Source: Marivita sp.
GTDB taxonomy: Bacteria; Pseudomonadota; Alphaproteobacteria; Rhodobacterales; Rhodobacteraceae
DNA: 64,000 bases
Direction of reading: 5' to 3'
Assembly: GCF_020055675.1 (NCBI RefSeq)
Contig: NZ_JAIPUS010000001.1
Coordinates: 310,001 to 374,000, forward strand
Part shown: in pieces, positions 35,586 through 47,659 of the stretch
Layout of the letters: each line of letters starts with the position of its first letter
Position numbering within the stretch: the first letter of the stretch is position 1
The notes under the pieces: generated by a model
The model's input: only the letters and a program-made list of their open reading frames with translations
Database searches by the model: none
What the model was told of the DNA's origin: nothing
Position numbers and translations under genes: made by a program

Positions 35586-36515
35586 TCATATGTTGACGCG
35601 ATCCGCGCCTTTCAGGCCAAGGATCTCGCGTGTTTGATCCGGTGTCGCGACCTGCATGCCCAATGTCTCGATGAGCGTTCTGGCGGTTTCGACCTGCTGT
35701 GCGTTCGATGTCGCGGGCACACCCGGCCCGGCCCAGAGAGAATCCTCCAGCCCGACGCGCACATGCCCACCTTGCGCCAGTGCCATCGCGGCAAGGGGCA
35801 TCTGGTGCCGCCCGGCGCCCAGCACCGACCATTGCCAATTGTATCCGAACAGCCGGTCCGCCGTTCGCTTCATGTGGGCCACGTCATCCGGGTGCGCGCC
35901 GATTCCCCCCATCAGGCCGAATACCGTCTGGATGAAAAGCGGTGGCTTGACCAGGCCGCGGTCCAGGAAGTGCCGCAGGTTATACAGATGTGCGGTGTCA
36001 TAACATTCGAACTCGAACCGCGTGTCATGCGCCGACAGTGTCGTGATGATGTCCTCGATCTGACCGAAGGTGTTGTTGAAAATGATGTTGCGGTTCGACA
36101 GGTAGTCCCGTTCCCAGTCATGTTGCAGATCGGGGTAGCGGTCGAGCATCGGATAAAGCCCGAAATTCATCGATCCCATGTTGAGCGATGCCAACTCCGG
36201 CTGCACGGTGGCGGCGGGACGCAGGCGGTCTTCGACACTCATGGTCGGGGCACCGCCGGTGGTGATGTTGATGATGCAATCGCATTGCGCGCGGATAGCC
36301 TTCAGGATGGGCGCGAAGGCTTCGGGTGTTTGCACGGGCCGTCCATCCGCGTCATCTCGGGCGTGCAGGTGCAGGATTGACGCTCCGGCGCGTGCGGCCG
36401 CGATGGCAGAGGCGGCGATCTGTTCGGACGTGACCGGCAGCGCGTCGGACATGGACGGCGTGTGGATCGCCCCGGTTATGGCGCAGGTCAGGATGACAGG
36501 TCGTGATTTGGTCAT
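35586..36515 (-). CDS. BKACE-family beta-keto acid cleavage enzyme (DUF849)
   Basis: A 309-residue TIM barrel of the BKACE (3-keto-5-aminohexanoate cleavage) family: VILTCAITGAIHTPSMSDALPVT at the start, ILHLHARDDADGRP near 47 (zinc His pair), INITTGGAPTMSVEDRL near 98, ASLNMGSMNFG near 128, and HVRVGLEDSLW near 250. BKACEs condense a beta-keto acid with acetyl-CoA, giving acetoacetate and a new acyl-CoA. The actual keto acid cannot be read. It lies tail-to-tail with kduD (24 bp gap) and head-to-head with an SDR gene. Confidence 0.9.
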   Translation of the reverse strand: MTKSRPVILTCAITGAIHTPSMSDALPVTSEQIAASAIAAARAGASILHLHARDDADGRPVQTPEAFAPILKAIRAQCDCIINITTGGAPTMSVEDRLRPAATVQPELASLNMGSMNFGLYPMLDRYPDLQHDWERDYLSNRNIIFNNTFGQIEDIITTLSAHDTRFEFECYDTAHLYNLRHFLDRGLVKPPLFIQTVFGLMGGIGAHPDDVAHMKRTADRLFGYNWQWSVLGAGRHQMPLAAMALAQGGHVRVGLEDSLWAGPGVPATSNAQQVETARTLIETLGMQVATPDQTREILGLKGADRVNI

Positions 36516-37399: not shown

Positions 37400-38677
37400 T
37401 CACCTGTAGATCAGCGTCGGCAGCCACATCGCGATTCCCGGCACAAAGGTCATCAGCAGAAGGCACGCGACCAGCGGGATGAGGAACGGTGCAGTCGAGA
37501 CGACACAGTGTTCGAACCGCACACCGGACACACGGCTCAGGACGTAGAGCACCATTCCCACGGGTGGTGTCAGCAGTCCCAGCATCAGGTTGAGCACCAT
37601 GATCACGCCGAAATGTACCGGGTCGATCCCCAGTTCGACTGCAACCGGCAAAAGCACGGGAACAAGAATGGTGATTGCGGCCACGGTCTCCATGAAGCAC
37701 CCGACGATCAACAGGATCAGGTTGATCATGAGCAGGATCACCCAGGGTCGATCCGACAGGGCCAGCAATACGGTTGCCGCTGCTTCAGGCACCCGGTTCG
37801 ATGTCAGGATCCAGGCGAAGATCGACGCCGCAGCGACCACGAACAGCACGACCGCGGTGGTCTCGATGGTGTCAAAGCTGACCCGCAGGAACCGTTTGAG
37901 TGTCAGCGTACGGTAGACGACAAGTCCCAGAAACAATGCATAGGCGCAGGCCGCGATGGCCGCCTCGGTCGGGGTGAAGGCACCCGACAGAATGCCTCCG
38001 ACGATGATGACCGGTGTCAGCAGTGACAGGAACGCCCGTGTAAAGGTCACCCACAGCAATTTCCACGCAAAGGGCTGGTCGCGCTTGAAATTTCGCACCC
38101 GGGCGAAATAGGCGACCATCAGCATGAGCGATGCGGCCATGATCATGCCCGGCAGGAAGCCCGCCGCAAAAAGTTGTCCGATGGAGGCACCTGAGACCAC
38201 GCCGTAGATCACCATCGGCAGCGATGGCGGGATGATCGGACCGATAGTCGACGACGCCGCGGTGACACCCACGGCAAAGCCCGGCTCGTAGCCCGCGTCA
38301 CGCATCGCCTTGATTTCGATGGAGCCAAGCCCGCCGGCATCGGCCACGGCCGCGCCGGACATGCCGGCAAAGATCACCGACGCACCCACGTTGACATGAC
38401 CAAGCCCGCCGCGCATCCACCCGACGAGCGCAAGCGCAAAGCTGAAAATCCGTTCGGTGATCCCGGCGCTGTTCATCAGGTTCCCGGCAAGGATGAAGAA
38501 CGGCACCGCCAGCAGCGGAAAGCTGTCCACCCCGTTGATGACCCGGTGTGCCACGATCAAAGGCGGCACGTCGCCCGTCAGGATGAAAAGGGCCGATCCG
38601 CCGATCAGCGCGATTGCCACCGGCACACCGCAAACCAGCAGCACACCGATGATGAGGAACAAAATGGTGAATGTCAT
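37400..38677 (-). CDS. dctM: TRAP transporter large permease (DctM type)
   Basis: A 425-residue membrane protein with about twelve helices. Family motifs: LLVCGVPVAIALIGGSALFI, a FPLLAVPFFILAGNLMNSAGITERI loop near 50, VIFAGMSGAAVADAGGLGSIEIKAM near 100, and IIPPSLPMVIYG near 150. It is the transport channel of a tripartite ATP-independent periplasmic uptake system driven by sodium or proton gradient. It is last of the dctP-dctQ-dctM order, 4 bp after dctQ. The neighbourhood suggests a sugar acid as substrate. Confidence 0.95.
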   Translation of the reverse strand: MTFTILFLIIGVLLVCGVPVAIALIGGSALFILTGDVPPLIVAHRVINGVDSFPLLAVPFFILAGNLMNSAGITERIFSFALALVGWMRGGLGHVNVGASVIFAGMSGAAVADAGGLGSIEIKAMRDAGYEPGFAVGVTAASSTIGPIIPPSLPMVIYGVVSGASIGQLFAAGFLPGMIMAASLMLMVAYFARVRNFKRDQPFAWKLLWVTFTRAFLSLLTPVIIVGGILSGAFTPTEAAIAACAYALFLGLVVYRTLTLKRFLRVSFDTIETTAVVLFVVAAASIFAWILTSNRVPEAAATVLLALSDRPWVILLMINLILLIVGCFMETVAAITILVPVLLPVAVELGIDPVHFGVIMVLNLMLGLLTPPVGMVLYVLSRVSGVRFEHCVVSTAPFLIPLVACLLLMTFVPGIAMWLPTLIYR

Positions 38678-38681
38678 CGGA

Positions 38682-39248
38682 TCAATCGACCCCTTTCATA
38701 TCGACATGATCGTCGGGATCAATCAGGTGGCTGGTTCCCAGGCGAATATGCTTCGCGGTGTTCCAGATCGCGTAAAGTGTCATGGCGGCAAAACAGACCG
38801 CGACATAGTAGTAGACCGCCGATTTCGGCACCTCGATGGACACCATGAGCTGTGTGGTGCGCCCGGCGAGCTGCATTGTCAGGTATGTCATGCCCGCGTA
38901 GAAGGCGACTGCGATGAGATCGATCGCGAATTGTGCAAACCTGCGCACCGTGCGAGGGACGTATCGGTACAGGAATTCGACCGCGATATGAGAATTCTTG
39001 CGCGTCGCCATGATCGCGCCGGTGAATGTCAGCGCGATGAGCAGGAAGCGGGCGATCTCTTCGGTCCATCCCAAAGAGTTGTTCAGGACGTAGCGGGTAA
39101 AGAACTGGAGAAAGACGACAAAGGCGAGAACCCAGAAAACCGTCAGCAGAGCGTAATCCTCGACGGAGATATCCGACAGGTCGATCTGCTCGTCTTCGTC
39201 TTCTATGTCGATTTTGGTGACTTGGAGTTCGTCCTGGATCTGCGACAT
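38682..39248 (-). CDS. dctQ: TRAP transporter small permease (DctQ type)
   Basis: A 188-residue four-helix protein. An acidic cytoplasmic start (KIDIEDEDEQIDLSDISVEDY) precedes FWVLAFVVFLQFFTRYVLNNSLGWTEEIARFLLIALTFTGAIMATRK, the classic DctQ signature; KNSHIAVEFLYRYVP follows. The ATG at 39248 has GAGG before it; an upstream codon would add six residues. DctQ binds DctM in the inner membrane and is required for transport. A hairpin separates it from dctP. Confidence 0.93.
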   Translation of the reverse strand: MSQIQDELQVTKIDIEDEDEQIDLSDISVEDYALLTVFWVLAFVVFLQFFTRYVLNNSLGWTEEIARFLLIALTFTGAIMATRKNSHIAVEFLYRYVPRTVRRFAQFAIDLIAVAFYAGMTYLTMQLAGRTTQLMVSIEVPKSAVYYYVAVCFAAMTLYAIWNTAKHIRLGTSHLIDPDDHVDMKGVD

Positions 39249-39288
39249 CGACGGAACCTCATGCAAGCGCGTGTCAGGGCATCAAAGA

Positions 39289-39337: not shown

Positions 39338-40336
39338 TCAGCCTTCGGCACCGATCGCTTGCAAGCGGTCATAGGTATCCTGATCCCAGGTTGCCATGTC
39401 GCCGTTGTGCATCTCCATCACGGCCTCGCGGAACGGCGTGATGTCGACCTCGTTCACATTGGTGCCTTGCTCGCGGAACCAGTCGGCCAATTCTGCTTCT
39501 GCATCGCGGATTTGCGATGTCACACAGCCCGCGGCATCTTCGATGATGCCTGTCAGGGTTTCCTGGTCTGCGGCATCAAGGCTGCCCCAGGTCGGACCGC
39601 CGACGATGCCAAGCAGGGAATCCACGATGTGGCCCGTCAGGTTGATGTCGGATTGCACTTCGTGGAATTTCTTGGCCTGGATCGTGGGCAGTGGGTTTTC
39701 CTGGCCGTCGACGGTGCCTTGCTGCAAGGCCAGGTAGACCTCTGCAAAGGCAATCGGGGTCGGATTGGCATCAACCGCACGCGGGAACATCATGTAAAGC
39801 GGCGCGTTCGGCACCCGCAACTTCATGTCCTCCATATCCGCAGGTGTCTGGATCGGCATGTTCGACGTGGTATGCCGCGCGCCGTAATAGGCCAATGTGA
39901 TGGCGTGGTTGCCGGTTGCGTCGTTGTAGCCCTGGAGCATATCGGCAAAAAGATCACTGCCGCGATAGGCTTCCCAGTGATCATAGTCCCGGAACATGAA
40001 CGGCGCGCCGCCGATTGCAATGGGCCCGTAGGAGCGCCCGGCAAACAGCTGTCCGGTCCAGATCATGTCGACGGTGCCAAGGCCCAGGCCTTCGTTGATA
40101 TCGACTTCCTTGCCCAACGAGGATGCCGGGAAAACTTCGATCCCGAGCCGGTTGTCGGTCGCTTCGGCCAGCTTGTCGCCCGCTTCGACCGCACATGTGT
40201 GATAGGGTTCGCTGGCTTCGTAGACATGCGCCCATTTCAGAACACGGTCTGCCTCTTGGGCGGTGGCCGGAAGCGCCATTGCCAAGGCGGTGGTTGCGGA
40301 CAGAGTGATCTTTAACATGTTTCGTTGAATTGTCAT
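39338..40336 (-). CDS. dctP: TRAP transporter substrate-binding protein (DctP type)
   Basis: A 332-residue periplasmic binding protein. After the signal peptide (MTIQRNMLKITLSATTALAMALPATAQ), family segments appear: VLKWAHVYEASEPYHTCAVEAGDKLAEATDNRL, FPASSLGKEVDINEGLGLGTVDMIW near 80, a MKLRVPNAPLYMMFPRAVDANPTPIAFAEVYLALQQGTVDGQENP stretch near 180-220 holding the Arg that binds the substrate carboxylate. Thus an organic acid, here probably a sugar acid, is the ligand. Start ATG 40336 has AGGGAGGA upstream. It follows the regulator-enzyme fusion gene by 39 bp on the same strand. Confidence 0.95.
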   Translation of the reverse strand: MTIQRNMLKITLSATTALAMALPATAQEADRVLKWAHVYEASEPYHTCAVEAGDKLAEATDNRLGIEVFPASSLGKEVDINEGLGLGTVDMIWTGQLFAGRSYGPIAIGGAPFMFRDYDHWEAYRGSDLFADMLQGYNDATGNHAITLAYYGARHTTSNMPIQTPADMEDMKLRVPNAPLYMMFPRAVDANPTPIAFAEVYLALQQGTVDGQENPLPTIQAKKFHEVQSDINLTGHIVDSLLGIVGGPTWGSLDAADQETLTGIIEDAAGCVTSQIRDAEAELADWFREQGTNVNEVDITPFREAVMEMHNGDMATWDQDTYDRLQAIGAEG

Positions 40337-40375: not shown

Positions 40376-42148
40376 TCAGTCGGCAGTCTCCTCGCAGCTG
40401 AGCAGTGGGATGTCTTGGCGCGCGGCAAAATCGTTCAATGCCGTCACGGTCGTCTGGTCGAGGCCGAGGCCACCCTCCAGGCGGCGCTCGGCCTCGGCCC
40501 ATTCGCGGTCGCCAGCGGCCATTACGGTCTCCAGCGGTGCGGTGGCAGAGTGGCGAATGCTGTCGCGATAGCGGCGGATCACCGCTTCGGCGGTTGCCCG
40601 CCCCACGAAGGCATCCGGGTCGAGGGCAAGGACGAACGCCCCCAATCGGCGCGGTGTTGTCAGGTCGTCCGAGATCATTGGCGGCAATTCGCGGCTCAAC
40701 GGCGAGTCCGACAAAGCCGCCGACAGGATTTCCGAGATCCCGGCAAGACCGGCCCCCTTGTACCCGAAGGCACCGCCCAACGGGGCGAGCATCGTGGCCA
40801 ATTCCGGGGTGACGGTGTCGATTCCGTTGCTGTCAGACGCGGTGCGCGCCGGCAGGGTATTGCCCAGGGCCTGCGCAAGCTGCACCTTGTTGAAGGGAAT
40901 GGCGCTGGTCGCCATGTCGAAAAGCCAGGGTGGCTCATCCGATCCGGTACTGGCAGCAAAGGCGATCGGGTTGGTCCCGTGGAACCGTTCGGCCCCGCCA
41001 TGCAGGCGCACGTAAGGGTCTGAATTGCAGACGCACAGCCCGATCATGCCGGCCTCGGCAATGGCAAGCGCATAAGCGCCGGCCGCGCCAAAATGCGACG
41101 AATTCTGGATCGCAACTGCACCGATACCCGACTGGCCCGCCATGCCCACCGCAGCTTCGACCGCGGCATAGGTTGCACGGGCGCCATGCCCGTCATCCGC
41201 GTCCAGGAGGGCAACTGCGCCCGATGTGGTATCAAGCCTGATCTCGGGGTTGGTTTTCACCCGGCCATGTTCGAGCACTTTCAGGTAGTGCGGCAAGAGC
41301 CTGTAGCCGTGGCTGTCTACGCCATGCAGGGAGGCATGGCTGAGCGCGCGCAGGATGGCGTCCGTGGTGGACGCATCCGCCTTCACCTTGCCAAGAGCCA
41401 GGCGCGAGAAGTGCTCCATCTCGGACAGCATCACCCGCCGCCGTCCCGTCTCAAGCGGCGCGTCCGATTGCATTGCGTTGTAATCTTCGACGTTGCTGCG
41501 GATATGCTTACTCAACAACTCCGCAGCAAGATCGCCGTCATTTGCCCGGACAGCCTCTAGGATGGCGATATGGGTCGCATGGGAGCGGCTGATCCGGCGG
41601 CGATCTCCGGTCAGGCGCGCGCGAATGGACTGTATCCGCGACGCGATGGTGACAAACGACTTTTCGAGGTAGCGGTTGCCGCAGCGCCGGAACATTTCCA
41701 TGTGGAAATCGTGATCGGCCCGGGAAAATGCCGCGATATCGTTTTTTTCCAGCGCGGCCGCACCCAACTGTATCGACCGATCCAGATCTTTCGCCAGCCC
41801 GGCCTGGTCCTTCGCGATGGCAAGCCGAACAGCCTGCGTTTCAAGCACGTCGCGCAGGTAGCCCAGTTCCTTGACATCAGCGGTGTCGAGGGTGATCACC
41901 CGCGCCGACCGGTTCGGCGACATCACGACCAGGCCTTCCTGCGCGAGTTCAAGCAATGCCTCGCGGATCGGGCTCTTGCTCATGTTCAAAAGCGCCGACA
42001 GATCCGATTCCCGCAATGTCCGACCGAAGGCGAATTCATCCGTGACGATGCGCTCGCGTATCCAGTCGCGCGCCTGCTCTGACAGCTTGCGGCGCGTCTT
42101 GCCCTCTTGCGAGGGGGCGGTTCGAGGTAATGACGACTCTATCTCCAT
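40376..42148 (-). CDS. GntR/FCD transcriptional regulator fused to Ldh2-family dehydrogenase
   Basis: One uninterrupted 590-residue frame holds two proteins that are normally separate. Residues 20-85 are a GntR winged helix (QARDWIRERIVTDEFAFGRTL, LSALLNMSKSPIREALLELAQEGLV). Residues 92-220 are an FCD effector domain with candidate metal ligands Asp145, His149, His192 and His215. Residues 240-585 are a full malate/L-lactate dehydrogenase of the Ldh2/YlbC family: ASLHGVDSHGYRLLPHYL with His280, AIQNSSHFGAAGAYAL, VCNSDPYVRLHGG, GTNPIAFA and GAFGYKGAGLAGISEILSAAL. No stop or frameshift separates them. Met240 could be an internal start, but only a weak GGACGG precedes it. The gene heads the operon with dctPQM and has an operator-like repeat just upstream. 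Confidence 0.9.
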   Translation of the reverse strand: MEIESSLPRTAPSQEGKTRRKLSEQARDWIRERIVTDEFAFGRTLRESDLSALLNMSKSPIREALLELAQEGLVVMSPNRSARVITLDTADVKELGYLRDVLETQAVRLAIAKDQAGLAKDLDRSIQLGAAALEKNDIAAFSRADHDFHMEMFRRCGNRYLEKSFVTIASRIQSIRARLTGDRRRISRSHATHIAILEAVRANDGDLAAELLSKHIRSNVEDYNAMQSDAPLETGRRRVMLSEMEHFSRLALGKVKADASTTDAILRALSHASLHGVDSHGYRLLPHYLKVLEHGRVKTNPEIRLDTTSGAVALLDADDGHGARATYAAVEAAVGMAGQSGIGAVAIQNSSHFGAAGAYALAIAEAGMIGLCVCNSDPYVRLHGGAERFHGTNPIAFAASTGSDEPPWLFDMATSAIPFNKVQLAQALGNTLPARTASDSNGIDTVTPELATMLAPLGGAFGYKGAGLAGISEILSAALSDSPLSRELPPMISDDLTTPRRLGAFVLALDPDAFVGRATAEAVIRRYRDSIRHSATAPLETVMAAGDREWAEAERRLEGGLGLDQTTVTALNDFAARQDIPLLSCEETAD

Positions 42149-42161
42149 GCGGAGACGATAG

Positions 42162-42180
42162 GTGATATCCGATATATCAC
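42162..42180. promoter_or_regulatory. Operator-like inverted repeat GTGATAT-N5-ATATCAC (site 1)
   Basis: GTGATAT at 42162-42168 and ATATCAC at 42174-42180 are perfect 7-bp inverted repeats, 13 bp before the start of the GntR-dehydrogenase fusion. The same half-sites and spacing recur at 47641-47659. Size and symmetry fit a FadR-type GntR operator, so it is probably the autoregulatory site of the fusion protein. Confidence 0.75.
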
Positions 42181-42348
42181 AAGAAAAATTTTCGCCATTT
42201 TGAACGTTCGGCAGGTGTGCGGATGCGCTGGTCGTTGGAGGCGCGACACATCGGGCGGCGCAGCAAAAAGCCCCGGACGCCGACTGCGGACCTCCGGGGC
42301 TTGGCTGGATGACCGGGATCACGTCATCCGTTCGGGATGCGCTTGGGC

Positions 42349-43194
42349 CTACTTGGCTGCTTCGGCAACCTGCCGCTGACGGCCCAGACCTTCGACTTCG
42401 ATCTCCATCACGTCGCCGGGCTTCAGGAAACGTTGCGGCTTCATGCCCATCCCGACACCCGAGGGCGTTCCGGTCGCGATGATGTCGCCGGGAACCAGCT
42501 CCATGAATTGGCTCATGTAGGAAACGATTTCCCGCACTGTGAAGATCATGTCATCCGTGTTGGAATCCTGCACCACCTCGTCATTGAGTGTGAGCGACAC
42601 GCGCAGGTCCTGCGGGTTCGGCACGTCGTCGGCGGTCACGAGATACGGGCCGGTCGGACCAAAGGTAGGGGCGGATTTGCCCTTGATCCATTGCCCGCCC
42701 TTTTCGATCTGGAAGGCGCGTTCGGACACGTCGTTGATGGTGCAATAGCCCGCAACATGGTCAAGCGCGTCCTCCTCCGAGACGTAGAGCGCGCGGCGTC
42801 CGATCACGACACCCAGTTCCACTTCCCAATCGCCCTTGACCGAGCCGCGCGGCAGGATCACCGGATCGAACGGTCCCGACAGGGCGGATGTGGCCTTGGA
42901 AAACAGGATCGGCTCGGTTGGCGGGAGGGCGCCGGTTTCCTCGGCGTGTTTGGCGTAGTTGAGGCCAATGCAATAGAAATTGGGTACCGAGGCAAGACAA
43001 CTGCCGATGCGACCGGGCGTTTCGACAAGTGGCAGGTTCCGGAGGTCAATTTCTTTCAACGCGGCAAGCGCCTCGATCGAAACGGAAGCGCCCGAGAAAT
43101 CCGTCACGTGCTCGGACAGGTCCCGGATATTGCCATCGGCATCCAGAACGCCGGGTTTTTCCTGGCCCTTGGGGCCAAAGCGCAGAAATTTCAT
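42349..43194 (-). CDS. FAH-family hydrolase, probably 2,4-diketo-3-deoxy sugar acid hydrolase
   Basis: A 281-residue fumarylacetoacetate-hydrolase-fold enzyme. An N-terminal lid of about 70 residues is followed by FYCIGLNYAKHAEETG (catalytic His), ILFSKATSALSGPFDPVILPRG, DWEVELGVVIG with metal Glu residues, GYCTINDVSERAFQ, GKSAPTFGPTGPYLVT and GDIIATGTPSGVGMG. This is the type found with SDR and dehydratase genes in L-fuconate and L-rhamnonate breakdown, where it cleaves the 2,4-diketo-3-deoxy acid to pyruvate and a hydroxy acid. Start ATG 43194 gives the family N-terminus MKFLRFG. It is divergent from the hydroxyacid dehydrogenase gene. Confidence 0.88.
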   Translation of the reverse strand: MKFLRFGPKGQEKPGVLDADGNIRDLSEHVTDFSGASVSIEALAALKEIDLRNLPLVETPGRIGSCLASVPNFYCIGLNYAKHAEETGALPPTEPILFSKATSALSGPFDPVILPRGSVKGDWEVELGVVIGRRALYVSEEDALDHVAGYCTINDVSERAFQIEKGGQWIKGKSAPTFGPTGPYLVTADDVPNPQDLRVSLTLNDEVVQDSNTDDMIFTVREIVSYMSQFMELVPGDIIATGTPSGVGMGMKPQRFLKPGDVMEIEVEGLGRQRQVAEAAK

Positions 43195-43435
43195 GATACC
43201 TATCCTATCCAGCTTTGCAGAAATGACGCGGTCGCACCGCGCATCGCAATACGGTCGCACCGAGCAACCCGGTACCGCTTCCGCTATACGGTGTAAAGTT
43301 CAACAGGCTTTTCCGGGCTTTGGCTCGACATTGGCGAGTTGGCGGATGGGTCCGGCGCATCTATCAGCGTTGACACGCCCCGAATCACCGCGCACCTTTC
43401 GCCAGATTTCATGACTGGCGCAGGACAGGTGACGC

Positions 43436-44374
43436 ATGACACGAACGCTCGCGATCGGACCTTACAACGACGCAGAAAAACAGGGCTTGGCCACGGCATT
43501 CGATCCGGTTTTCCTTGACCATCCGGGCGCGATTGCGGGTCTGGATGCTCAACACCGCGACCTGGTCACCACCGTTGCCTACAAGGGACACAGTGCATTC
43601 GGAGCCGCAGAGATGGGCCATTTGCCCCAGCTTGGCCTCGTTGCAAATTACGGCGTCGGGTATGATTCGATCGACGTTGCAACAGCGACGGCACGCGGGG
43701 TCAAGGTGACGAACACGCCGGATGTCCTGAACGACGATGTGGCCGATCTTGCCGTTGCCATGCTGATCATGCAGGCGCGCGAAATGGAGCGGGCCAGCCG
43801 CTGGGCGCGTTCGGGCAAATGGGCGGAGCGGGGTGAATATCGGTTGACCCGCAAGGTCAGCGGCGGCCGCGTCGGGATCGTCGGCCTGGGCCGGATCGGT
43901 CGCGACATCGCAGAGCGTTTGGCGGCGTTCAAGATGGAGGTGCACTACTGGTCGCGCACCGAGAAAGACACGCCTGGCTGGACCTATCACCCTGATCCGG
44001 TGGCCTTGGCCGGGCGTGTAGATTACCTGGTCGTGGCCCTGGTCGGCGGGCCGGAGACAGAAGCCTTCGTGTCTCGCGACGTGATCCAAGCCTTGGGACC
44101 GCATGGCATCCTTGTCAATATATCGCGCGGGTCGACAGTAGAGGAAGCAGCCTTGCTCGAGGCGCTGGAAACCGGCAGGATCGCGGGCGCGGCGCTGGAT
44201 GTCTTTTGCAACGAACCAAAAATCGACCCACGCTTCTACGCTCTGGACAACGTGGTAATCCAGCCGCACACGGGGTCGGGGACGGTCGAGACCCGCGCGG
44301 CGATGGCGAAGCTGCAACGCGACAATATCGGCGCTTTCCTTGCCGGCGCGCCTTTGATGACCCCGGTAAATTGA
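43436..44374 (+). CDS. D-isomer-specific 2-hydroxyacid dehydrogenase
   Basis: A 312-residue NAD(P)-dependent enzyme: LVANYGVGYDSIDVATATARGVKVTNTP near 65, DVADLAVAMLIMQAREM, the cofactor loop VGIVGLGRIGRDIAERL near 145, NISRGSTVEEAALLEAL near 223 (catalytic Arg), ALDVFCNEPKID near 255 (Glu), and VIQPHTGSGTVETR near 275 (His). The WSRTEKD end of the strand suggests NADP preference. It resembles GhrB-like glyoxylate/hydroxypyruvate reductases and could handle the glycolate/glyoxylate or lactate-type product of the nearby FAH hydrolase. Confidence 0.92.
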   Translation: MTRTLAIGPYNDAEKQGLATAFDPVFLDHPGAIAGLDAQHRDLVTTVAYKGHSAFGAAEMGHLPQLGLVANYGVGYDSIDVATATARGVKVTNTPDVLNDDVADLAVAMLIMQAREMERASRWARSGKWAERGEYRLTRKVSGGRVGIVGLGRIGRDIAERLAAFKMEVHYWSRTEKDTPGWTYHPDPVALAGRVDYLVVALVGGPETEAFVSRDVIQALGPHGILVNISRGSTVEEAALLEALETGRIAGAALDVFCNEPKIDPRFYALDNVVIQPHTGSGTVETRAAMAKLQRDNIGAFLAGAPLMTPVN

Positions 44375-44418
44375 GCCTCCCGCCGCGATGTATGGCCCCG
44401 CCGTGGCGGGGCCCGGCT

Positions 44419-45147
44419 TCAGATCGTCATGCCGCCGTCGATGCTGATACACTGGCCGGTCAGGTAGCAGGTGTCGTCGCCGGACAAGTACACGACAAGA
44501 TCCGCGATCTCCTGCGCGGTTCCGATGCGTCCCATTGGCTGCCGCGCGACAAAGGCTGACATGGCGCTTTCGTAATCGCCCGTCGCCCGGAGCCTTTCAT
44601 GCAGAGAGGGGCTGTCCACTGTTCCTGGCGCGATGGCGTTGCAGGTGATACCCTTGCTGACGAAATCCGCCGCGACCGATTTGGTCAGACCGATCAGCGC
44701 GGCCTTGGACGTGCCATAGATACAGCGGTTCGGCAGTCCCCGGACACTGGATGCGACCGACGCGATATTCACGATGGCCCCGCGCCCCTTGTCGAGCATT
44801 CCCGGCAACGCCGCCTGGATCGCATGCAGATGCGCCCGCACGTTGAGGTGCATCGCATCGGCAAAATCGTCGTCGCTCACATCCAGAACGCTGCCGCCGT
44901 GCACATGGCCCGCGCAATTGACAAGGATGTCGGGCGCGGCGCTTTGAACAGCGTGCTGCAAGGCGGCCCTGTCCAGTACATCAAGGGCAAATGAGTCATC
45001 GCAGGCGATGCCCTCCAGAAGGTCGGCGCGCAGATCGGTCGCCACGACCTTGGCACCGGCGGCGGTCAGGGCTTCGACGCTGGCCCGCCCGATCCCCTGG
45101 CCGGCAGCAGTCACGAAGGCACGTTTGCCAGAAAGTCTTTGTGTCAT
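44419..45147 (-). CDS. SDR, probably 2-keto-3-deoxy-L-fuconate-type dehydrogenase
   Basis: A 242-residue SDR: RAFVTAAGQGIGRASVEAL, ATDLRAD (NAD-type Asp), DILVNCAGHVHGGSVLDVSDDDF, IVNIASVASSVRGLPNRCIYGTSKAALIGLTKSVAADF with catalytic Ser/Tyr/Lys, CNAIAPGTVDSPSLHERL, and CISIDGGMTI at the end. The RGLPNRCIYGTSKAA and GTVDSPSL segments are those of the BDH2/DHRS6-like group, which includes bacterial 2-keto-3-deoxy-L-fuconate 4-dehydrogenase. The likely step is oxidation of a 2-keto-3-deoxy sugar acid to the 2,4-diketo acid for the FAH hydrolase. Its start overlaps the preceding gene by 4 nt. Confidence 0.85.
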   Translation of the reverse strand: MTQRLSGKRAFVTAAGQGIGRASVEALTAAGAKVVATDLRADLLEGIACDDSFALDVLDRAALQHAVQSAAPDILVNCAGHVHGGSVLDVSDDDFADAMHLNVRAHLHAIQAALPGMLDKGRGAIVNIASVASSVRGLPNRCIYGTSKAALIGLTKSVAADFVSKGITCNAIAPGTVDSPSLHERLRATGDYESAMSAFVARQPMGRIGTAQEIADLVVYLSGDDTCYLTGQCISIDGGMTI

Positions 45148-46022
45148 GATGTCCTCATGTTCTTGCTCATCCAATCGACCATTTCCGACACCATCCTGTC
45201 GCCGTCACCATCTTCCCTGGCGCTTTGCAGGACGTCGTCGGCGCAACCCGACATGCGGCTGTCGAGCCCCAAATCACGTGTCATCTGCCGGTAATAGCCA
45301 ACGTCCTTGGACGCGTTCGCAATCGAGAAGGCAAGGCTCTGCTCGCCCTCCACGGCGTAGTTTCGAACGAATTCCATCATGCCCGATCGCAAGGGACCGG
45401 CGGCCATGACCTCGAACAGGGTCTGCCTGTCGATCCCCGCGGCATCGGCGGTGGCAAAGGCTTCGGACATCGCGCAGGCCACGGTCATGCCGAAGTAGTT
45501 GTTTATCAGCTTGATCGTATGGCCGTTGGGCAATGCGCCAAGGTGGAAGACGTTTTCCCCCAGAACGTCGAGCACCGGCTTCACCCGGTCGAAGGCGGCA
45601 CGGTCGCCGGAGCACATCAGGTTGAGCATCCCCTTTGCGGCGTGCGCCGGCGTCCGCCCCAGCGGCGCGGCGAGATAGGCTGCGCCTTTTGTCGCGAGAT
45701 CATCCCCGATCTGGAGTGTCGATGCGGGCAGGGAGGTTCCGAAATCGATCACCACCTGACCTGCACGCACCCCGGAAAGGATACCGTTTTCACCATAGAC
45801 ATTGGCCTCCACATGCTCGGAGGTGCCAACGCACAACATGACGATATCCGAAGAGTCCGTCAGCGCGCCCGCGTTGGCGGCCTCGGTGGCCCCGCGCGCC
45901 AATGCCTGTTCGATACCGCTGCGGTCGCGGTTGCCCAACACGCAAACGTCGTATCCCGCGTTTTGCAAACATTCGACCATGGCCCGGCCCATGAGGCCCA
46001 AGCCGATAAACCCGATCTTCAT
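45144..46022 (-). CDS. NAD(P)-dependent beta-hydroxyacid dehydrogenase (HIBADH-like)
   Basis: A 292-residue enzyme of the 3-hydroxyisobutyrate/tartronate-semialdehyde reductase family: MKIGFIGLGLMGRAMVECL (cofactor loop), VIDFGTSLPASTLQIGDDL near 115, AAPLGRTPAHAAKGMLNLMCSG near 130, and GHTIKLINNYFGMTVACAMSEAF near 170 with the catalytic Lys. Tartronate-semialdehyde reductase or 3-hydroxyacid dehydrogenase activity would fit a sugar-acid route. Start ATG 46022 is chosen; upstream in-frame sequence is the tail of the dehydratase region read out of frame. It is the middle gene of a three-gene operon. Confidence 0.9.
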   Translation of the reverse strand: MKIGFIGLGLMGRAMVECLQNAGYDVCVLGNRDRSGIEQALARGATEAANAGALTDSSDIVMLCVGTSEHVEANVYGENGILSGVRAGQVVIDFGTSLPASTLQIGDDLATKGAAYLAAPLGRTPAHAAKGMLNLMCSGDRAAFDRVKPVLDVLGENVFHLGALPNGHTIKLINNYFGMTVACAMSEAFATADAAGIDRQTLFEVMAAGPLRSGMMEFVRNYAVEGEQSLAFSIANASKDVGYYRQMTRDLGLDSRMSGCADDVLQSAREDGDGDRMVSEMVDWMSKNMRTS

Positions 46023-46062
46023 TTGATGTCCTCCCTTGGTGTCCCTGTCCGTGCCGGTCCGG

Positions 46063-47553
46063 TCACATGGTGGCGCCGATTTGCCAGGGCACGAATTCGG
46101 AATCGCCAAGACCTTGCAATTCGGATTTTGACGGCGCGCCAGAGGCCATTGCCAGCCACATCCGGTAGATTTCGCGCCCCACCTCTTCGACCGATTTTCC
46201 GTCCGAAATGACCGTGCCCGCGTTGACATCCATGTCGTCCGGCATGCGCTGGTACATCTCGGTATTGGTGGCGACCTTCATCGACGGGCTTGGTTTCGCG
46301 CCAAAGGCCGACCCGCGCCCGGTTGTGAAACAGACCAGGGTGCATCCGCTGGCGATCTGCCCTGTCACCGAAACCGGATCGTAGCCGGGGCTGTCCATGA
46401 AGGTGAACCCCTTGGCGGTCACTGGCTCGGCGTATTTGTAAACGCCGGTCAATGGCGTCGTGCCACCCTTGGCCGCCGCGCCAAGCGATTTTTCCAGGAT
46501 CGTCGTCAAGCCACCCGTCTTGTTGCCGGGGGAGGGGTTGTTGTCCATGCTGCCATTGTTGCGGGCGGTGTAGTCCTCCCACCACGCGATCAGGTCCAGC
46601 AGGCGCTGGCCTGTCGCGGTGTCGGCGGCGCGTGCCGTCAGCAAATGCTCTGCGCCGTATATCTCGGGTGTTTCGGCCAGAACCCCGGTGCCGCCCTGTG
46701 CCACCAACAGATCGCAGGCATGGCCCACGGCCGGGTTGGCCGTGACCCCGGACCAGGCATCGGATCCGCCGCATTGCAGGGCCACCATCAATTCCGAGGC
46801 GGGCGCCTGCTCGCGGGTGACGCCATTGACGACCGGCAACATGGCTTCGATTTTCTGGATGCCGAGGTCGATGGTTTTCTGCAACCCCCCGACATCCTGG
46901 ATATTCATGCGCTGGAACAATGGACCGGGGGTCAGGCCATAAGCCTCGATCAGCCAGTCAATCTGGTTCATTTCACAGCCGAGGCCCGCCATCAGCACGC
47001 CGCCGACATTGGGGTTCTTCGCATATCCCCACATGACCCGTTGCAGGGCCTCGAACCCGTCGCCAGAGCCAGCCATGCCGCACCCCGTGCCGTGCACGAA
47101 GGCGACAACACCGTCGACGTTCGGATAGTCCACCAACCGCTCCGGCGTGAAATGCGCGGCAATCATCCGGGCCGCGGTGGCGGAACAATTCACCGAGGTG
47201 AGAACGGCGATATAGTTGCGCGTGCCGAAGCGCCCGGACTCCCGCTTGTACCCCATGAAGTAGTCCTGCTGCCCAGGCGTGGGCGCGGGGCGCAGGTTGG
47301 TGGAGAACGTGTAGTCCGTATCCACCCCCCTGAATTCAAGGTTATGCGTATGCACATGCGCGCCCTTGGCGATATCCTCGGCCGCGTAGCCGATGATCTG
47401 CGCGTATTTGCGCACCGGCTGCCCCTTGGCAATATCGGCAATGGCCATCTTGTGCCCGCGGGGAATAAGCTGGCTCGCGCCCTCTGATCCGACATCAAGC
47501 GGTTTGATGGCGGTGACTACATTGTCGTCGTCTGACAGTTGAATGGTGGTCAT
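46063..47553 (-). CDS. UxaA-family sugar-acid dehydratase (altronate/galactarate dehydratase type)
   Basis: A 496-residue protein with both parts of altronate dehydratase. Residues 1-95 are the SAF domain (IPRGHKMAIADIAKGQPVRKYAQIIGYA, GAHVHTHNLEF). Residues 110-496 are the catalytic dehydratase region: RESGRFGTRNYIAVLTSVNCSATAARMIA, FVHGTGCGMAGSG, VLMAGLGCEMNQIDWL, VALQCGGSDAWSGVTANPAVG near 265, and CTLVCFTTGRGSAFGAKPSP near 400. These enzymes use iron to remove water from altronate or related hexonates, giving 2-keto-3-deoxy acids. Start ATG 47553; 88 bp upstream is a copy of the regulator's operator. It leads the dehydratase-HIBADH-SDR operon. Confidence 0.92.
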   Translation of the reverse strand: MTTIQLSDDDNVVTAIKPLDVGSEGASQLIPRGHKMAIADIAKGQPVRKYAQIIGYAAEDIAKGAHVHTHNLEFRGVDTDYTFSTNLRPAPTPGQQDYFMGYKRESGRFGTRNYIAVLTSVNCSATAARMIAAHFTPERLVDYPNVDGVVAFVHGTGCGMAGSGDGFEALQRVMWGYAKNPNVGGVLMAGLGCEMNQIDWLIEAYGLTPGPLFQRMNIQDVGGLQKTIDLGIQKIEAMLPVVNGVTREQAPASELMVALQCGGSDAWSGVTANPAVGHACDLLVAQGGTGVLAETPEIYGAEHLLTARAADTATGQRLLDLIAWWEDYTARNNGSMDNNPSPGNKTGGLTTILEKSLGAAAKGGTTPLTGVYKYAEPVTAKGFTFMDSPGYDPVSVTGQIASGCTLVCFTTGRGSAFGAKPSPSMKVATNTEMYQRMPDDMDVNAGTVISDGKSVEEVGREIYRMWLAMASGAPSKSELQGLGDSEFVPWQIGATM

Positions 47554-47640
47554 ATCGGTGGTCCAATTTGTTCCGTGTCCAACGCTGCGCAGGGCCAGAT
47601 TTCCACGCAGTTCCAAGCGCGCCGTGGCAGGTGTTTCAAA

Positions 47641-47659
47641 GTGATATACCAAATATCAC
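47641..47659. promoter_or_regulatory. Operator-like inverted repeat GTGATAT-N5-ATATCAC (site 2)
   Basis: GTGATAT at 47641-47647 and ATATCAC at 47653-47659 repeat exactly the half-sites and spacing of the site ahead of the GntR-dehydrogenase fusion; only the 5-bp centre differs. It lies 88 bp upstream of the dehydratase gene, suggesting control of that operon by the fusion protein. Confidence 0.75.

Follow-up and report, generated by a model that had tools for sequence, protein, structure and literature searches.

Autoregulated FadR-type regulons are common. Operators of the FadR subfamily are in general built from TKGT/ACMA boxes, with the consensus GT-N2-3-AC (PMC4494728). The closest described regulators come from E. 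coli. NanR has the half-site GGTATA, arranged in direct repeats and occupied by three dimers (PMC8012715), and DgoR, a FadR-subfamily regulator for D-galactonate, has an Asp-His-His metal site (PMC7674646). These descriptions, and the comparisons below that build on them, follow the available excerpts of the three papers. The locus reported here lies in a window of 64,000 nucleotides (the whole stretch of DNA that was analyzed) from a Marivita genome. It contains two copies of the palindrome GTGATAT-N5-ATATCAC, one ahead of a gene encoding a GntR-dehydrogenase fusion with its TRAP transporter, and the other ahead of a sugar-acid breakdown operon (Table 1).

Table 1. The two candidate operators and the operons behind them (window positions)
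Feature	Position	Strand	Remarks
Operator 1, GTGATATCCGATATATCAC	42162..42180	.	exact motif copy, 13 bp before fusion start codon; profile 24.1 bits
Operator 2, GTGATATACCAAATATCAC	47641..47659	.	exact motif copy, 87 bp before dehydratase start codon; profile 24.6 bits
GntR-FCD-Ldh_2 fusion (590 aa), proposed to regulate both sites	40376..42148	-	PF00392, PF07729, PF02615 above cut-off
DctP-type TRAP binding protein, behind fusion gene	39338..40336	-	PF03480
DctQ-like TRAP small permease	38682..39266	-	open frame, label by reading; order same in 13/13 loci
DctM-like TRAP large permease	37400..38677	-	open frame, label by reading; order same in 13/13 loci
Galactarate/altronate-type dehydratase, first gene of second operon	46063..47553	-	PF20629, PF04295, PF08666
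HIBADH-type dehydrogenase, second operon	45144..46022	-	PF03446, PF14833
SDR dehydrogenase, second operon	44419..45147	-	PF13561, PF00106

The fusion gene is a single open frame that joins GntR, FCD, and Ldh_2 parts. Its GntR winged helix (PF00392, 47.2 bits, cut-off 27) is followed by an FCD domain (PF07729, 81.1 bits, cut-off 24.3), and the protein is a member of the GntR superfamily, FadR/FCD subfamily. The Ldh_2 domain is full-length (PF02615 profile positions 4-332 of 333, 287.5 bits), and the fusion reaches no NCBIfam equivalog cut-off that would name the Ldh_2 enzyme. Four FCD residues (D145, H149, H193, and H215) are kept in 17/17 fusions; they were assigned as metal ligands by motif and by comparison with the available DgoR text (PMC7674646), rather than from a solved structure. 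A structure model of the fusion has a mean pLDDT of 73.6 with 110 residues below 50, and is weak in the Ldh_2 part. The full fusion is present in 2/17 genomes of the genus, the window genome included, and the genus member G410 has the same sequence at the fusion as Marivita sp. XM-24bin2 (locus L032). When 394 genomes of the family were searched with the fusion, 25 matched at E 1e-60 or better, five of them over near the whole length (own genome included), and the remaining matches cover mainly the dehydrogenase part. A word-based search of open-access papers found no GntR-Ldh_2 protein. A BKACE-family gene (35586-36515) passes the NCBIfam equivalog cut-off for 3,5-dioxohexanoate:acetyl-CoA acetone transferase (512.5 versus 430 bits). 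This gene and the adjoining SDR gene come after the fusion-TRAP genes in 4/13 ortholog loci, and in L034 the SDR gene alone does. The dehydratase that opens the second operon does not reach the equivalog cut-off for galactarate dehydratase.

An earlier note on this DNA had described the two 19-mers as the same perfect operator. Direct sequence comparison agrees, all 14 half-site bases being in common and the 5-bp centers unlike. Operator 1 is indeed 13 bp from the fusion ATG, whereas operator 2 lies 87 bp from the dehydratase ATG, and not 88 bp as claimed. With up to three mismatches allowed, GTGATAT-N5-ATATCAC has four matches in the window, versus an average of 0.69 and a maximum of three in 100 shuffles. 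A scan of the whole genome (3,604,362 bases, 82 contigs), which the note had proposed, returned exactly two exact copies, both in the window. Within two mismatches there are five places, i.e. the two exact copies, one copy with one mismatch, and two copies with two. The three near copies were rejected as operators because all are within mechanically called open reading frames.

Beyond this genome, an exact copy of the motif is found in 8/394 family genomes (own included), and only the window genome has two. Each of the seven copies in the seven other genomes is within at least one mechanical frame of at least 130 codons, and tblastn of the window proteins against the 3-kb loci around them gave no match. 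In the family genome G092, the exact motif (L146:1501-1519) immediately precedes a frame of 364 aa; there is no fusion in the vicinity and no match to the window island proteins within 3 kb. This copy may be a genuine site that belongs to another system, and it indicates that the motif can occur at an unrelated promoter. As a control, we scanned 16 other genomes of the genus, nine of which have a match at zero or one mismatch (10 places, one of them exact, at the G410 fusion gene). One-mismatch copies are thus commoner than exact ones and not rare in the genus. A scan for sigma-70 consensus promoters found none at operator 1 or operator 2, and overlap between operator and promoter is therefore an assumption.

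We compared 17 distinct full-fusion loci, namely the window, 13 further loci, and G315, G152, and G188. This set was obtained by merging L007 into L033, and L153 and L162 into L032, and by replacing L008-L010 with the longer L144, L145, and L136. A profile built from 14 other fusion loci, with the window left out, gives its two highest scores in the window to operator 2 (24.6 bits) and operator 1 (24.1 bits). The next match (15.6 bits, at 1560) was rejected as a third operator because it sits within open frames, in line with the report of only two copies. Under leave-one-out scoring, the window and 15/16 other loci have their best site immediately before the fusion gene, and a similar palindrome thus emerged from the comparison of orthologous upstream regions that had been suggested. 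Scores of these sites range from 14.9 to 32.1 bits. The weak ones are those of L039 (14.9 bits, with other bins up to 12.3) and of G152 (18.0 bits, with a degenerate core). The sole exception among the 16 is G188 (L136), which has no recognizable site upstream of its fusion (-2.5 bits), and whose recognition helix reads GTGRREIREAL, versus MSK[SI]P[IV]REAL in the 16 other fusions. The conservation in 15/16 loci, the ranking by a window-free profile, and the altered helix of the one fusion lacking a site together tie the operator to the fusion. The ortholog set includes close relatives (L035/L054 and L038/L041/L042), so there are fewer independent cases than loci.

Mirror symmetry, assessed over 14 sites, holds at positions 3-17 in 10 to 14 of them, but at the outer two positions in only four and one. 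The conserved core is therefore the 15-bp GRTATAYNRTATAYC. This part of the originally proposed motif stands as a conserved element, whereas the outer GTG...CAC (GT...AC) does not. When the 16 other fusion genomes were scanned for exact GRTATAYNRTATAYC, 10 gave a match, at one place each, and these matches have the fusion-promoter sequences; the one place in G395 holds two overlapping registers. An operator at the regulator's own gene that is conserved in orthologs is what autoregulation predicts, and the fusion gene appears to have one. We also considered covariation between helix and operator, in which SKIPV fusions have right half-sites ATACC/ATACA and SKSP fusions ATATC, ATATG, or ATAAC. 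This was dropped because the SKSP loci L033 and L034 carry GGTAT, which is that same half-site read from the opposite strand, and because the groups coincide with clades. Two sites are of separate interest. At L033:8968-8993, two overlapping palindrome registers, 7 bp apart, form a longer palindrome, GGTATATGATATATCATATACC, where there might be room for two dimers. At an unfused Ldh_2 locus, a 19.6-bit site, TTTGTATACCGTATACCTT (L015:3319-3337), lies just upstream of an SDR gene and is perhaps a relative of the operator from before the fusion arose.

The second operon has a different background. Dehydratase homologs are present in 16/16 distinct genomes searched. Near the homologs at 24 loci (22 distinct, L059/L060 and L075/L076 each being one genome reached twice), the core at zero or one mismatch was found in none; two loci have a one-mismatch core match far upstream, at about -0.8 and -1.1 kb. 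We also hand-picked 20 regions, a non-random set made up of the best HIBADH/dehydratase matches and the fusion genomes, which became 19 on removal of L136, where there is no dehydratase. None of these 19 regions has the GTGATAT-N5 motif within two mismatches, and one (L129) has two matches at three mismatches. In the loci and regions examined, operator 2 is not conserved at the second operon. A standalone GntR homolog is found in 15 of the 19 regions (that of L120 being the reference, itself included), at least one TGGTATACCA site in 15, both together in 14, and a homolog of the L120 TRAP large permease in 16 (one at 28% only). In L120, from the same-genus genome G371, two TGGTATACCA sites lie between divergent GntR and TRAP genes. 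L129 comes from the same Marivita genome as L032. The fusion is present there, and the dehydratase operon, on a separate contig, goes with two TGGTATACCA sites and a standalone GntR that is 84% identical to that of L120. Going by position, the standalone GntR likely regulates the homologous dehydratase operon in relatives, which seem to place the sugar-acid breakdown operon under a different regulator.

In the window genome, the FAHD, SDR, HIBADH, and dehydratase proteins share 79-88% identity with their G371 counterparts. A search of the window genome for the standalone GntR found no close relative. The best match (53% identical) is on contig C2, in a separate TRAP/dehydrogenase operon (L143) that has three TGGTATACCA sites of its own. 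Descent of operator 2 from a TGGTATACCA operator was examined: both contain TTTGGTATA, but when the operator 2 region was aligned locally with the TGGTATACCA regions from 15 loci, no alignment attained the threshold score. We infer that in this lineage the fusion took control of the dehydratase module, which in other genomes mostly comes with a standalone GntR, TGGTATACCA sites, and TRAP genes of its own. The simplest account is that the old regulator and transporter were lost, and the operator of the fusion gained, in this lineage. Elsewhere, the fusion-TRAP genes of L039 and L040 are followed, on the same strand, by dehydratase genes, and this gene order is another route to the same coupling of fusion and dehydratase.

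Taken together, these findings make it likely that the GntR/FCD-Ldh_2 fusion protein has both palindromes as its operators. Our confidence is good rather than complete because the G152 site is degenerate, because covariation is weak apart from G188, and because the L146 copy precedes a gene-like frame. One fusion regulator would thus probably control its own transporter operon and the sugar-acid breakdown operon, and the best reading of the sequences is an autoregulated FadR-subfamily regulator whose regulon was joined here by a second operon. The compact regulon that had been predicted is supported by conservation at the fusion promoter (15/16 loci) and by the rarity of the motif in the genome; operator 2 was found in no other genome examined. 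In the mechanism that we propose, a dimer of the fusion protein would bind each operator and repress both operons. A sugar acid imported by the TRAP transporter, or a derivative, would bind the FCD pocket at the metal site and release the repressor, whereupon transport, the dehydrogenase of the fusion, and the dehydratase pathway would be induced together. The Ldh_2 part may be only a co-expressed enzyme. It is possible, but on the unlikely side, that the fusion is an enzyme-repressor that took over the second operon as this lost its own GntR, and in which turnover of substrate or NAD(P)H in the Ldh_2 domain gates operator binding, so that the protein senses flux through the pathway in addition to the level of ligand.

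There is a small chance that the fusion binds both sites as an activator or dual regulator. The sign of control is unreadable from sequence and a consensus promoter was not located, but a position 13 bp before the start codon, as for operator 1, generally suits blocking better than activation. We consider it improbable that operator 1 alone works and that operator 2 is a chance or non-functional copy, which would reduce the regulon to the fusion-TRAP operon. Although none of the dehydratase homologs examined has a counterpart of operator 2, and the single place of the core in 10/16 other fusion genomes suggests a single-operon regulon there, two exact copies in one genome occur in 0/393 other family genomes, and operator 2, which scores as high as operator 1, is only 5.5 kb from it and 87 bp before a pathway operon. 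Finally, that another transcription factor binds both sites, the fusion gene being merely a target, is very improbable: the genome does encode 15 FCD-domain proteins, and similar half-sites, of the GGTATA type, are known from related GntR proteins (PMC8012715), but with exact copies nowhere else in the genome and near copies within frames, no other regulator gene carries the motif, and the operator tracks the fusion gene across genera while the ortholog with a changed recognition helix has no site.

Under the preferred reading of fusion control over both operons, what is new here is a GntR-Ldh_2 fusion, an operator of an unusual type, and a second operon that was apparently captured. Such a capture is testable: within one genus, a single catabolic module has two apparent control systems that differ, and several genera have a fusion of regulator and enzyme whose operator is sharply defined. 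Should the dehydrogenase domain influence DNA binding, an enzyme would directly set transcription of its own pathway.

How does this system compare with those already described? Standalone GntR proteins of the dehydratase regions, e.g. that of L120, are unfused, are 27-37% identical to the GntR part of the fusion where matched, and go with TGGTATACCA sites. Against the NanR model, the GntR-FCD part of the fusion scores 73.3 bits, where the cut-off is 260; it also matches a NanR structure, and the GGTATA half-site of NanR, which belongs to the FadR subfamily, resembles the GRTATA of the fusion operator. As far as the available NanR text goes, NanR uses direct repeats, whereas the fusion has a conserved inverted repeat and a dehydrogenase domain. 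With DgoR, going by the available portion of PMC7674646, the fusion shares a sugar-acid operon, an inverted-repeat operator, a regulator gene that comes first in its operon, and an Asp-His-His site; unlike the fusion, DgoR has no enzyme domain there and belongs to a different operon. The fusion operator is an A/T-rich palindrome, like the general FadR-subfamily operator in the excerpt of PMC4494728, but its core, GRTATAYNRTATAYC, does not fit the GT-N2-3-AC consensus, GT and AC being set otherwise. NanR was left out of that consensus for a like reason and, since the same excerpt lists exceptions to it, membership of the fusion in the FadR subfamily stands.
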